Part shown: piece after piece, positions 26,605 through 30,034 of the stretch
Layout: each line of letters starts with the position of its first letter
Position numbering within the stretch: the first letter of the stretch is position 1
Source: Hydrogenophilales bacterium
GTDB lineage: Bacteria > Pseudomonadota > Gammaproteobacteria > Burkholderiales > Thiobacillaceae
Assembly (NCBI GenBank): GCA_024636675.1
Contig: JAGXGM010000076.1
Location: forward strand, 1-33,084
Reading direction: 5' to 3'
DNA: 33,084 nt
The notes under the pieces: model-generated
Database searches by the model: none
What the model saw: the letters and a program-made list of their open reading frames with translations, nothing else
Told to the model about the DNA's origin: nothing
Translations under genes and position numbers: made by a program

Positions 26605-26663
26605 AGCTGAGTTGAGTACCGGGTTTTCGAGGCAGTGGTGTGTTACGTCGGGAGGCAAGCATC

Positions 26664-27743
26664 ATGCAGGGTCCGTTGATCGATACACTCGCGCGGCAGG
26701 GCGTTAGCCGCCGCACTTTTCTCAAGTATTGCGCCACGCTGGCCTCGATGATGGCCTTGCCGCCCGCGGCCGGGCTTGCCATGGCCGAGGCGATGGCCGC
26801 CGCTCGCAGGCCGTCGGTGATCTGGCTGCCGTTCCAGGAATGCACCGGCTGCACCGAGTCGTTCACGCGTTCGCACTCGCCGACGCTGGAAGGCATGATC
26901 TTCGACATGATCTCGCTCGACTACCAGGAGACGCTGATGGCCGCCGCCGGGCACCAGGCCGAGGAAGCCCGGCACACCGCGATGCGGGACAACGCGGGCA
27001 AGTACCTGCTGGTCATCGACGGCTCGATTCCGCTGGATCAGGGCGGCGCCTATTCCTGCATCGGCGGCCGCTCCAATCTGGACATCCTGAAAGAAGCCGC
27101 CGAGGGTGCGGCGGCCATCATCGCCATGGGCACCTGCGCCGCCTACGGCGGCATCCCGAAGGCCAACCCGAACCCGACCGGCGCGGTGTCGGTGTCCGAC
27201 ATCGTCAAGGACAAGCCCATCGTCAACATCCCCGGCTGCCCGCCGATCCCGGTGGTGATGACCGGCGTGCTGGCGCACTACCTCACCTTCGGCAGCCTGC
27301 CCGAACTCGACGACAAGGGCCGGCCAAAAGCCTTCTTCGGCGAAACCATCCACGACCGCTGCTACCGCCGCCCGTTCTACGACCAGGGCAAGTTCGCCAA
27401 GACCTTCGACGACGAGGGCGCGCGCCGCGGCTGGTGCCTGTTCGAACTCGGCTGCAAGGGGCCGGTGACCTATAACGCCTGCGCCACGGTGAAGTGGAAC
27501 GGCGGCACCTCGTGGCCGGTGGAATCCGGGCACGGCTGCCTCGGCTGCTCCGAGCCCGATTTCTGGGACGCAGGCGGCTTCTACAAAGCCCTGTCGCTGC
27601 CGGCCGATCCGCTCAAGTTCGCCGCCGCCGCCGCGGTGGTGGGCACAGGCGCGGGGGTGGCGATCGGCTTCGCCAACCGCTCCAAGAAGGGCGGCGCCAA
27701 GTCCGCGCATGAAACCACCACTCTGGACGACCTGGAGAAATAA
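26664..27743 (+). CDS. hynS: [NiFe] hydrogenase small subunit (Isp-type, group 1e-like)
   Basis: Electron-transfer subunit of a periplasmic-facing uptake hydrogenase, 359 residues. The N-terminus carries a twin-arginine signal (SRRTFLKY, R16-R17) with a hydrophobic stretch to about residue 45. The proximal cluster begins CTGCTES (C60, C63) and continues with GTCAAYGGI and GCPPIP. The distal cluster has HDRCYRRPFYDQGKF, CLFELGCKGP, and the medial cluster lies in GCLGCSEPDFWD. A weakly hydrophobic C-terminal segment (FAAAAAVVGTGAGVAIGF) may help anchor it. The ATG at 26664 is preceded by GGGAGG at 8 bases. The order small subunit, Isp1, Isp2, large subunit is characteristic of HynS-Isp-HynL enzymes. 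Confidence 0.95.
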   Translation: MQGPLIDTLARQGVSRRTFLKYCATLASMMALPPAAGLAMAEAMAAARRPSVIWLPFQECTGCTESFTRSHSPTLEGMIFDMISLDYQETLMAAAGHQAEEARHTAMRDNAGKYLLVIDGSIPLDQGGAYSCIGGRSNLDILKEAAEGAAAIIAMGTCAAYGGIPKANPNPTGAVSVSDIVKDKPIVNIPGCPPIPVVMTGVLAHYLTFGSLPELDDKGRPKAFFGETIHDRCYRRPFYDQGKFAKTFDDEGARRGWCLFELGCKGPVTYNACATVKWNGGTSWPVESGHGCLGCSEPDFWDAGGFYKALSLPADPLKFAAAAAVVGTGAGVAIGFANRSKKGGAKSAHETTTLDDLEK

Positions 27744-27979
27744 TGGAACCTCCGATTGTTTTATCCATGGACCGCGTTTACACGAAAAATGCTCAGCTGC
27801 AAGGCGCGCGACGAAGGTCGTATCGAGCATACGAAGCCGAGGAGCGCAACGCCACAGATGAGCATTTTTCGTGCAAACCCTTTGGGGCCTGGCTTTCCGG
27901 GCGGTCTGCTTTGTCGCGCATCCCGTCCCGGAAAGCCGCGCCGCGGCCACGGATAAAGCAATCGGAGGTTCCTAAATGA
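27743..27979 (+). CDS. Through-reading 78-codon frame across the hynS-isp1 element (probably not a functional protein)
   Basis: The frame starts at ATG 27743-27745, sharing a base with the hynS stop (TAATG), with GGAG at 27733-27736 as a possible ribosome binding site. It ends TGA 27977-27979, overlapping the isp1 ATG as ATGA. It runs through the whole palindromic element. The product would be Arg/Lys-rich (QGARRRSYRAYEAEERN) with no recognised domain, and its content simply follows the repeat. The possible value is translational: ribosomes could pass from hynS to isp1 without release, opening the hairpins. Whether it is translated is unknown. Confidence 0.3.
   Translation: MEPPIVLSMDRVYTKNAQLQGARRRSYRAYEAEERNATDEHFSCKPFGAWLSGRSALSRIPSRKAAPRPRIKQSEVPK
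27745..27972. mobile_element. Nested palindromic MITE-like element between hynS and isp1
   Basis: A 228-bp element with 26-bp terminal inverted repeats at 27745-27770 and 27947-27972 (24 of 26 identical; outer bases GGAACCTCCGATTG). Three further perfect inverted repeats are nested inside: CACGAAAAATGCTCA (27781-27795) with TGAGCATTTTTCGTG (27859-27873); TCGTAT with ATACGA (27818-27834); and GGCTTTCCGGG (27891-27901) with CCCGGAAAGCC (27927-27937). TAA occurs at both borders, a possible short target duplication. No transposase frame is present. The right arm contains GGAGG (27964-27968), which serves as the isp1 ribosome binding site. The architecture suggests a non-autonomous element or a structured RNA. 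Confidence 0.7.
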
Positions 27980-28635
27980 ACGAGCTGCAATTTCTGACCT
28001 GGGTGCGTGGCACGGGACTCAATATTGCCGTGGCGATTTTTCTGCTGGGGGTGACGTGGCGCCTGTTCGAAATCTACTCGCTGGGCCGCAAGAAAGACCT
28101 GTCCGCACCGCGCCATGCGTCCGGCGCGTCGGGCCTGCACACGGTGTTCCGCCGTTCGCTGGCGCCCCCCGGCATGCTGAAGCGTTCGCCGGTGAGCTAC
28201 ATCGGCGGTTATATCTTCCATCTCGGCCTGGCCGTCGTGGTGTTCCTGTTCGCTCCGCACATCCTCCTGATCTCCAATCTCACCGGCCTGTCGTGGCCCG
28301 GGCTGCCTTCGCAGTTCATCGACCTGGCGGCGGTGGTGACGATGGCGGCCATGCTGGTGATGCTGGTCGACCGCATCAGCAAGCCGGTCAAGCGCTTTCT
28401 TTCCACCTTCGAGGACTGGTTCACCTGGACGGTGACCTTTTTGCCGGTGCTGACCGGCTGGATGGCAGTGCAGCACCTGCTGCTGCCCTACACCACGATG
28501 CTGGCGCTGCACATCCTGTCCGTTGAAATCCTGCTCATCGTGCTGCCCTTCACCAAGCTGTTCCATGCCTTCACGCTGTTCGGCTCGCGCTGGTACAACG
28601 GCCGGGTCAACGCTCACAAGGGGGTACCAGTATGA
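27976..28635 (+). CDS. isp1: Isp1, NarI-like membrane cytochrome b of the hydrogenase
   Basis: A 219-residue inner-membrane protein with about five hydrophobic segments, resembling NarI/DsrM-type diheme cytochrome b subunits. It probably accepts electrons from the small subunit and passes them to Isp2 or the quinone pool. Candidate haem-ligand histidines lie in YIFHLGLAV and LALHILSVE, with others near FHAFTLF. The N-terminus NELQFLTWVRGTGLNIAVAIFLLG is in the membrane. The ribosome binding site GGAGG lies in the palindromic arm at 27964-27968, and the ATG overlaps the stop of the frame through that element. Its own stop overlaps a 37-codon frame as ATGA. Confidence 0.9.
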   Translation: MNELQFLTWVRGTGLNIAVAIFLLGVTWRLFEIYSLGRKKDLSAPRHASGASGLHTVFRRSLAPPGMLKRSPVSYIGGYIFHLGLAVVVFLFAPHILLISNLTGLSWPGLPSQFIDLAAVVTMAAMLVMLVDRISKPVKRFLSTFEDWFTWTVTFLPVLTGWMAVQHLLLPYTTMLALHILSVEILLIVLPFTKLFHAFTLFGSRWYNGRVNAHKGVPV

Positions 28636-28745
28636 GCAGGAAGCAGGGGCCCCACGCAGTGGGGATGCGACCGGCCGCGAATGCTGGTGGCGACCGACAC
28701 GAAAGCCTCGGTATATCCCGTACGTTCAAGGAGGGAGCGGTATGA
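28632..28745 (+). CDS. Possible 37-residue micro-ORF between isp1 and isp2
   Basis: A short frame in the 106-bp gap between isp1 and isp2. Its ATG (28632-28634) overlaps the isp1 stop as ATGA, and its TGA (28743-28745) overlaps the isp2 ATG as ATGA. AAGGGGG lies upstream of its start. The product would begin MSRKQGPHAVGMRPAANAGG and is basic, without cysteines or a membrane segment. The octamer GTATGAGC occurs at both ends (28630-28637 and 28740-28747), and a hairpin CCCCAC/GTGGGG lies at 28650-28664. It may be a genuine small protein or DNA inserted into what was once a direct ATGA junction. No homologue is recognised. Confidence 0.3.
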   Translation: MSRKQGPHAVGMRPAANAGGDRHESLGISRTFKEGAV

Positions 28746-30034
28746 GCGCCACACTCGAAAAAGGCATCCGCGTCCTCAAGGAAGTCATCGACGCGCCCAT
28801 CGCCAGCTATTTCAACAGCTGCGTGCACTGCGGCCTGTGTGCCGAAGCCTGCCTGTTCTACACGGAAACCGGCGACCCCAAGTACACGCCGATCCACAAG
28901 CTGGAGCCGTTGCGTCGTATCTACGAGCAGGAATACACCTTGCTGGGGCGGCTGAAAAGCATGGTCGGCCTGTCCAGGGCCGTGACCGACGACGAACTCG
29001 ATCAATGGCAGGAGCTGGTCTACAACAGCTGCACCCTGTGCGGCCGCTGCTCAGCCGTCTGTCCGGTCGGCAACGACATCGTCTACATGGTGCGCAAGTT
29101 CCGCGAGGGCATGTCGGCCTCCGGCCATGCACCGGCAGGCATCAAGGACGCGGTCACCCGCACCGTCACGGTCGGCAGCCCGATGAATGTCAAGCTGCCC
29201 GCGGTGCAGGCGCAGATGAAGCACGTGGAAGAAGACTATGGCATTCCGATTCCGCTCGATGCCGAAGGCGCCGAATACATGGTGGTGCTGTCGTCGATGG
29301 AAATCATGAACTTCCCGGAGTATCTGGCGGCCGTCGCCAAGATCATGCAGCAGGCGGGCAAGACCTGGACGCTGTGCTCGACCGCCTTCGAGGCGACCAA
29401 TGCCGGCATCCAGATCGGCAACTCGGACCTGGCGAAAGTGATCGTTTCACGCATCGTCGAGGGCGCGGAAAAGCTCAAGGTGAAAACCGTGATCAGCCCC
29501 GAATGCGGCCATGCCTACACCGCGTTGCGCTGGGAAGGCCCCAACCTGATCGGGCGGCCGTTCGGCTTCGAGGTCAAGCACATCATCGAGGTGCTCGACG
29601 AGTTCCAGGCGCAGGGGCTGCTGCAGACCGAAGGCTTCGAGACCGACCGCCTCACCTTCCACGACCCGTGCCAGCTGGTGCGTCGCGGCGGCGTGATCCA
29701 GCAGCCGCGCACGCTGATGAACATGGTGGCGAATAACTTCGTCGAGATGCCGGATGCGGGCTACATGAACTGGTGCTGCGGCGGCGGCGGCGGGGCGTCG
29801 GCCATCGAGGAAGGCGAGGAACTGCGGCTGGAAGCCTTCAAGAAGAAAAAATCCCAGTTCGACGCGGTCAAGCCGGACCGGGTGGTCACGGCCTGCGCCA
29901 ACTGCCGCATCGTGCTGGAAGAAAGCCTCGAACACTACAAGATGGACATCCCGGTGATCGGCCTGACCGAGATGATTGCCGAACATATTCCAGAACCCGT
30001 GCCGCAAGCGGCCGCCAAGCCGGAAGGAGCCTGA
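28742..30034 (+). CDS. isp2: Isp2, HdrD/DsrK-like iron-sulfur protein of the hydrogenase
   Basis: A 430-residue cytoplasm-side partner of Isp1, related to heterodisulfide reductase subunit D and DsrK. Two [4Fe-4S] binding motifs lie at C27, C30, C33, C37 (CVHCGLCAEAC) and C97, C100, C103, C107 (CTLCGRCSAVCPVG). The C-terminal half has CCG-type elements: SPECGHAY, HDPCQLVRRGG, then NWCCGGGGGASA and a final VTACANCRI. These may hold a noncubane cluster active in thiol/disulfide chemistry. The frame is open from 28523, but ATG 28742 has AAGGAGGGAG upstream and starts directly before the family sequence. It is followed after 4 bp by the large subunit gene. Confidence 0.93.
   Translation: MSATLEKGIRVLKEVIDAPIASYFNSCVHCGLCAEACLFYTETGDPKYTPIHKLEPLRRIYEQEYTLLGRLKSMVGLSRAVTDDELDQWQELVYNSCTLCGRCSAVCPVGNDIVYMVRKFREGMSASGHAPAGIKDAVTRTVTVGSPMNVKLPAVQAQMKHVEEDYGIPIPLDAEGAEYMVVLSSMEIMNFPEYLAAVAKIMQQAGKTWTLCSTAFEATNAGIQIGNSDLAKVIVSRIVEGAEKLKVKTVISPECGHAYTALRWEGPNLIGRPFGFEVKHIIEVLDEFQAQGLLQTEGFETDRLTFHDPCQLVRRGGVIQQPRTLMNMVANNFVEMPDAGYMNWCCGGGGGASAIEEGEELRLEAFKKKKSQFDAVKPDRVVTACANCRIVLEESLEHYKMDIPVIGLTEMIAEHIPEPVPQAAAKPEGA

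Follow-up and report, generated by a model that had tools for sequence, protein, structure and literature searches.

A palindromic MITE-like repeat between hynS and isp1 of a betaproteobacterial hydrogenase operon: a possible translational relay

We analyzed 33,084 nucleotides of DNA from a Hydrogenophilales bacterium (contig JAGXGM010000076.1, forward strand; hereafter the window), in which the hydrogenase genes hynS and isp1 are separated by a palindromic element. That the element is a non-autonomous, MITE-like repeat, and part of a family that is dispersed in the Burkholderiales, is well supported by sequence comparisons. An open reading frame (ORF) crosses the element from the stop codon of hynS to the start codon of isp1, and we see about an even chance that the element acts as a translational relay, which would keep isp1 coupled to hynS.

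Results

Anatomy of the hynS-isp1 element

In the ORF list, hynS (small subunit of NiFe hydrogenase; Pfam NiFe_hyd_SSU_C and Oxidored_q6) occupies 26640..27743 on the forward strand, as do all features described here, and its stop codon is TAA (27741-27743). isp1 is at 27976..28635, with its ATG at 27976. The element between them (27745-27972) has outer arms of 26 nt each, which are 92% complementary: the left arm (27745..27770; GGAACCTCCGATTG...) is of a type that is repeated in other genera, which we call type B, and it pairs with the right arm (27947..27972). Within the outer pair, two inner hairpins follow one after the other, one with arms at 27776..27799 and 27855..27878 (92% complementary), and the other with arms at 27886..27901 and 27927..27942 (88%). 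The core that is common to dispersed relatives with other arms is 27772..27951. An earlier note, made from the sequence alone, had reported this element and its 26-nt outer arms, and both are real. It also described three nested perfect inverted repeats; there are three repeats, but none is perfect, and the inner two are nested within the outer one but not within each other.

The putative Shine-Dalgarno sequence of isp1 (GGAGG, 27964..27968) lies within the right arm, as the earlier note had it. It ends seven bases upstream of the ATG, and in all four genomes that carry the element at this junction (the host of the window, or G000, and G005, G025, and G027), it starts 12 nt before the ATG. The candidate relay ORF, which the note had also described, is present at 27743..27979 (78 codons): it overlaps the hynS stop codon by one base (TAATG; -1) and the isp1 start codon by four (ATGA; -4). 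A promoter or a terminator inside 27600-28100 was considered and rejected: no promoter-like site was detected, and there was one terminator-like site versus 0.6 expected.

A dispersed family with IS5-type ends

The host assembly (2.54 Mb, 81% complete) has one copy of the element. The earlier note had proposed a search for other copies in related genomes, and among 100 genomes (the host, 55 others of the genus, 4 of the family, and 40 of the order), at least 16, including the host, have matches; scoring was limited to seven candidates per genome and copies were missed, so these counts are lower bounds. The core (query 30-209) recurs with another type of arm (CAGGCTGTTGAAAAACTC-like; type A), for instance at 7 or more places in G095. 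As for the type B arm, a 13-base pattern finds 24 sites in G096, 13 in G140, 9 in G085, and 23 in G131, which belong to other genera, with no sites in G181 and none in the reversed control. We fetched 30 of these 69 type B sites, which yielded nine different readable arm pairs; exact 4-nt YTAR duplications flank 4 of these 9 paired copies. YTAR is the target duplication of the IS5 group. In G096, one type B arm (GGAACC-N-CYGATT) begins 78 nt before the remnant of an IS5-type transposase (NF033581, transpos_IS5_4; E = 2.6e-58). By this remnant, which is truncated, is from another genus, and has a left end but no right end that we could find, the type B arm is an IS5-like terminal inverted repeat.

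The copies of the element vary in internal length and contain no transposase. At hynS-isp1, none of the four carriers has a YTAR duplication. A search for DUF772 transposases found none in G005, G025, or G027 and one in the host, without an adjoining type B arm. Carriage on a plasmid was considered, but a plasmid collection had no match to the element. Overall, the dispersed relatives, the element-free junctions (below), and the IS5-type arms with target duplications elsewhere give good support to the earlier proposal of an inserted mobile mini-element.

Filled and empty sites

Junctions without the element, which the earlier note had suggested looking for, are the rule. Of 30 loci in the genus set, 26 have just 2-8 nt between the last aligned codon of hynS and isp1 (including the stop codon), and the other four carry the element; by the same measure, their gaps are 235 nt (the window), 277 nt (G005), 423 nt (G025), and 146 nt (G027). 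Among 80 named loci, 79 were readable and three have the element (L071, L078, and L107), with the same junction sequences as G005, G027, and G025, respectively. Five loci from other lineages (L103, L113, L128, L129, and L135) have other inserts of at least 30 nt at this junction. We also read 20 of the 21 remaining locus matches and found no further carrier. Counting from the stop codons, the gap is 11 nt or less in 97 of 109 junctions, which come from two locus sets that overlap in species, and it is 1-2 nt in 85 of these 97. The usual empty site is TRA, one or two bases, and ATG (TRA-GC-ATG or similar). The four filled sites have common ends: TRATGGAACC on the left, and GGTTCC or GGCTCC followed by three bases and ATG on the right.

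Within the genus, a 22-base arm pattern (up to 3 mismatches) matches 4 of 56 genomes, only at hynS-isp1 and at the same nucleotide. The looser 13-base pattern matches 26 of the 56 (11 sites in G006, usually one in each of the others, and 6 sites in the reversed control); within the four carriers, it too occurs only at hynS-isp1. A scan of 300 genomes from the order gave seven matches to the 22-base pattern outside the window, each with 3 mismatches, and two in the control.

To place the carriers, we used a tree of hynS and the DNA that follows it. This is a tree of the locus rather than of the species because rpoB was dropped as a species marker: 19 of the 56 genomes, including the host, gave no match. 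The carriers require at least three changes on the locus tree, and grouping them as one clade is rejected (p-AU = 3.9e-7, with bootstrap support not fully settled), so a single vertical inheritance by the carriers alone is rejected on this tree. G025 and G027 are sisters, while the host (G000) is sister to G049 and G005 is sister to G048, and neither G049 nor G048 has the element. Recombination with long flanks was also rejected, as the flanks of G000 and G005 match those of these element-free sisters and not each other. Between pairs of carriers, the elements differ at 5 of 150 bases (G000 and G005) to 12 of 114 bases (G025 and G027), or 3-11%, and fourfold sites in isp1 differ at 17-31%. The distribution may reflect recurrent gain, lateral spread, or an old presence with many losses. 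Repeated fresh transposition into hynS-isp1 is doubtful, because the common ends of the carriers are not YTAR duplications and because of the outcome of the DUF772 search.

The host assembly has a second hyn operon (contig C6, L255), whose junction reads CTGGAGGTTCCCAAATGAACGA and in which hynS ends on the ATGA of isp1. This looks like the scar of a deletion of the element, from the GGAG of hynS to the GGAG of the right arm; the contig is possibly misassigned.

The reading frame through the element

The ORF reaches isp1 in 3 of the 4 carriers (lengths of 144, 237, and 279 nt). It overlaps hynS at -1 and isp1 at -4 in the window and in G005, and it ends directly before isp1 (0) in G027. G025 has no strict relay: its ATG frame, of 133 codons, runs out about 28 nt upstream of isp1. 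Three inserts of other sequence (L128, L129, and L135) contain ATG relays as well, and two (L103 and L113) do not. In total, a strict ATG relay is present in 6 of 9 distinct inserts at this junction versus 3.15 expected (P = 0.015, uncorrected for relatedness); the nine inserts form four sequence groups, three of which contain relays. Individually, the window has a shuffle probability of 0.25; for L128 and L129, the value is 0.95, and these two weigh little because their shuffles bridge too. Nor is the open frame in the window more than chance could produce (P = 0.05-0.27 with three models of composition), and the elements of all four carriers have at most two stop codons in any frame. The earlier claim of a relay therefore stands as to the overlaps of stop and start codons, but the openness of the frame is within chance and G025 does without a strict relay. 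We consider a relay at hynS-isp1 to be suggested by these data.

Predicted pairing of the Shine-Dalgarno sequence

The junction RNA was folded, as the earlier note had advised, and it is far more stable than its shuffles: the element folds at -143.6 kcal/mol, compared to a shuffle mean of -91.9 (z = -11.3), and none of 200 shuffles was as good. In the full-length fold, the GGAGG is predicted to be paired in all four carriers (unpaired probability of 0.000-0.002). If the fold omits the first 45 nt of the element, the central base of the GGAGG is unpaired with a probability of 0.45-0.89, and the value for the outer bases is often much lower. The pairing of the right arm is decaying in G027. Folding thus provides the support for the idea, put forward in the earlier note, that the left arm would mask the Shine-Dalgarno sequence of isp1.

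A second, probable relay between isp1 and isp2

The evidence for a relay is much stronger at the next junction, where it is well supported by the sequences. The window has a 106-nt insert between isp1 and isp2 (28636-28741) that is unrelated to the hynS-isp1 element. It is spanned by a candidate relay ORF of 37 codons (28632..28745) with ATGA overlaps at both ends, and it ends with the putative Shine-Dalgarno sequence of isp2 (AAGGAGG, 28728..28734, by count); isp2 itself is at 28742..30034. The commonest arrangement of isp1 and isp2 is an ATGA overlap (54 of 109 junctions). We compared 34 distinct inserts that are at least 25 nt long and derive from several unrelated sequences, and 32 of them are bridged. 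In 30 of these, the bridge is a single ATG ORF with -4 overlaps on either side; in the other two, it is a pair of such ORFs in a chain. L082 and L134, which are not bridged, have no ATGA at the isp1 stop. Another locus, L268 (gap of 70), bridges as well, with -4 and -4. Shuffles of fixed length would be expected to bridge 17.35 of the 34 (tail probability of 1e-11, uncorrected for relatedness); inserts shorter than about 75 nt add little, because their shuffles mostly bridge too. If one or two bases are deleted from the middle of each insert, just 5 or 11 of the 34, respectively, still contain a relay. Single-linkage clustering placed the inserts in 8 similarity groups, and in six of these, every member has the relay.

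What is kept at isp1-isp2 seems to be the link between frames rather than the peptide, given that L117 and L130 read the repeat in another frame, with its total length preserved, and that nonsynonymous differences exceed synonymous ones across the first 16 codons of 12 members (pN = 0.142, pS = 0.046). We read both inserts in the window as tolerated or recruited translational relays.

We considered isp2-hynL as a control junction. Its six gaps of 62-256 nt include four with a loose relay and two with none, but it is a poor control because most of the long gaps hold a conserved gene. This gene, of about 148 codons, is found at isp2-hynL in many relatives (such as L101 and L105); the gap in the window is 4 nt. 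The isp2-hynL inserts of L132 and L135, which have CACAGAGAACACAGAG-like sequence, form loose relays, and L135 also has sequence similar to its isp2-hynL insert at hynS-isp1. In L046, about 146 extra nt are nested within the copy of the element as found in G025, and these are partly like the GAGCAGGGGCCCCGC repeat of the isp1-isp2 insert.

The isp1-isp2 repeat in other operons

The isp1-isp2 repeat (peptide MSREQGPR...) is also found outside hydrogenase operons. A pattern search of the genus found it at 17 places in 12 of the 56 genomes, with 12 of the places at hyn by position. Of the non-hyn copies (L231, L238, L239, L242, and L244), only L242 has an ATGA relay: in G046, it sits at the ATGA of glyQ-glyS, with -4 at both ends. 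Across 300 genomes of the order, 7 (including the host) have matches, at 9 places. With gene names assigned from the ends of the peptides, the seven loci outside the window are ftsW-murG (L247 and L249), isp1-isp2 (L250), dctQ-dctM-like (L251), mnmG-rsmG (L253), the end of glyQ (L252), and one tandem place at a nuoA-like gene (L248 and L254). The repeat starts at -4 on the upstream stop codon in five of the seven (L247, L249, L251, L252, and L253), and the downstream gene is at -4 in five (L247, L249, L250, L251, and L253). In L248, the gap between the upstream gene and the repeat is +4. In L250, isp1 ends 10 nt before the ORF of the repeat. A five-codon, ATGA-to-ATGA frame lies between them and links the isp1 stop to the repeat, as though the chain had been extended.

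Discussion

From what is observed (the anatomy, the mobile family, the empty sites, the recurrence at one nucleotide, the predicted pairing, and the frames), we infer that the ORF through the element may be translated, that the stem may be opened, and that isp1 may be coupled to hynS. In element-free relatives, isp1 is preceded by the GGAG in which hynS ends; the element moves isp1 away from this GGAG and brings a new GGAGG in its right arm, which the left arm could mask by pairing with it. On finishing hynS, a ribosome could restart at once on the overlapping ATG, five bases downstream of the old GGAG. Its translation of the left arm would then unfold the stem, and it would terminate at the ATGA of isp1. 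The relay would thereby couple isp1 to hynS and might also keep the gap covered by ribosomes. Several points weigh against such a relay: some of the inserts are related to each other and do not count as independent, a strict relay is missing from G025, L103, and L113, and the pairing of the right arm is decaying in G027.

The element could instead be a tolerated passenger that landed just before isp1, with an arm that by chance provided a good Shine-Dalgarno sequence and an open frame that is the by-product of a stop-poor repeat, and with no coupling. We consider this a real possibility, if a less probable one than the relay. It would accommodate a frame whose openness has a chance probability of 0.05-0.27, the scarcity of stop codons in every frame of the four carriers' elements, and the missing strict relay in G025; also, the hydrogenase may be dispensable. 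However, the two ends of the frame use -1 and -4 overlaps, which are common between coupled genes (PMC10666635), and a relay is strongly kept at isp1-isp2. Also, the Shine-Dalgarno sequence is predicted to be paired unless the left arm is opened.

The stability of the fold (z = -11.3) would also suit a device that acts at the level of RNA, in which the long hairpin is cut (as by RNase III) or shields the mRNA, so that the levels of hynS and isp1 are set separately. A review (PMC10969869) names RNase-mediated cleavage of MITE-bearing transcripts. But G027 is down to 146 nt, with most of its interior lost, and there were no Rfam matches over 27000-28700 (up to E = 1). We view such a device as unlikely. 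We give even less credence to a functional small protein encoded by the 78-codon ORF, which would be a surprise. The ORF is open in carriers, and pN is below pS in all six pairs of carriers, but with 5 to 12 differences in each pair, these are too few to show constraint. The ORF has no match in Pfam, its C-terminal part varies in frame and length among carriers, and its core is a dispersed repeat; furthermore, isp1-isp2 is bridged by unrelated peptides, with pN above pS in the main repeat.

A relay of this kind resembles some known systems. Mycobacterial interspersed repetitive units (MIRUs), as described in a review (PMC12548453), seem to move, enter at start codons, and carry an internal ORF that is coupled at -4, probably with little consequence for the gene concerned. 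On paper, both inserts in the window are similar: they are mobile-looking repeats at start codons, each with an ORF of its own that ends at -4 on the downstream gene. However, MIRUs are from mycobacteria, which are other bacteria than those studied here, and the hynS-isp1 element has a palindromic structure and IS5-type arms, and its usual empty site has no ATGA overlap. Insertion at an ATGA, as for MIRUs, is seen for the isp1-isp2 insert, which fits the MIRU anatomy much better; the likeness drawn here is one of anatomy. The hynS-isp1 element also resembles MITEs of the IS5 family, with arms like the one beside the IS5-type transposase remnant, YTAR duplications at some copies elsewhere, length variants, and no transposase, but it has no matching duplication at hynS-isp1, and each carrier has just one site, which is always the same within the genus. 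In Rickettsia, palindromic elements with an open frame are kept in expressed regions, but as in-frame fusions inside genes, as described in PMC10969869, whereas the hynS-isp1 element is intergenic and has a separate ORF. Chunjie, a MITE of Geobacter uraniireducens, is about 235 bp, has size variants, and is found in an operon; the description that we consulted mentions neither a relay ORF nor the supply of a Shine-Dalgarno sequence. In the open-access literature, we found no description of these units, whether as MIRU-like or MSREQGP repeats or as palindromic repeats of Thiobacillus.

More broadly, and somewhat more tentatively than for the relay at hynS-isp1, we propose from these comparisons that Betaproteobacteria have mobile relay units, that is, repeats that would survive in tight operons by means of a frame that joins the upstream stop codon to the downstream start codon. 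One family would insert where genes overlap by ATGA, in several operons. A palindrome of IS5 type, unrelated to that family, would do likewise at hynS-isp1, where it would return to one nucleotide in several lineages and add a stem that stays closed unless a ribosome translates through it. This suggests a rule: a tight operon may accept foreign DNA that keeps ribosomes moving. The rule is testable because the two junctions offer many natural replicates, including the same repeat in another frame with its length kept. The isp1-isp2 repeat also points to a MIRU-like family outside the mycobacteria, in operons for hydrogenase, the cell wall, and tRNA synthetase.
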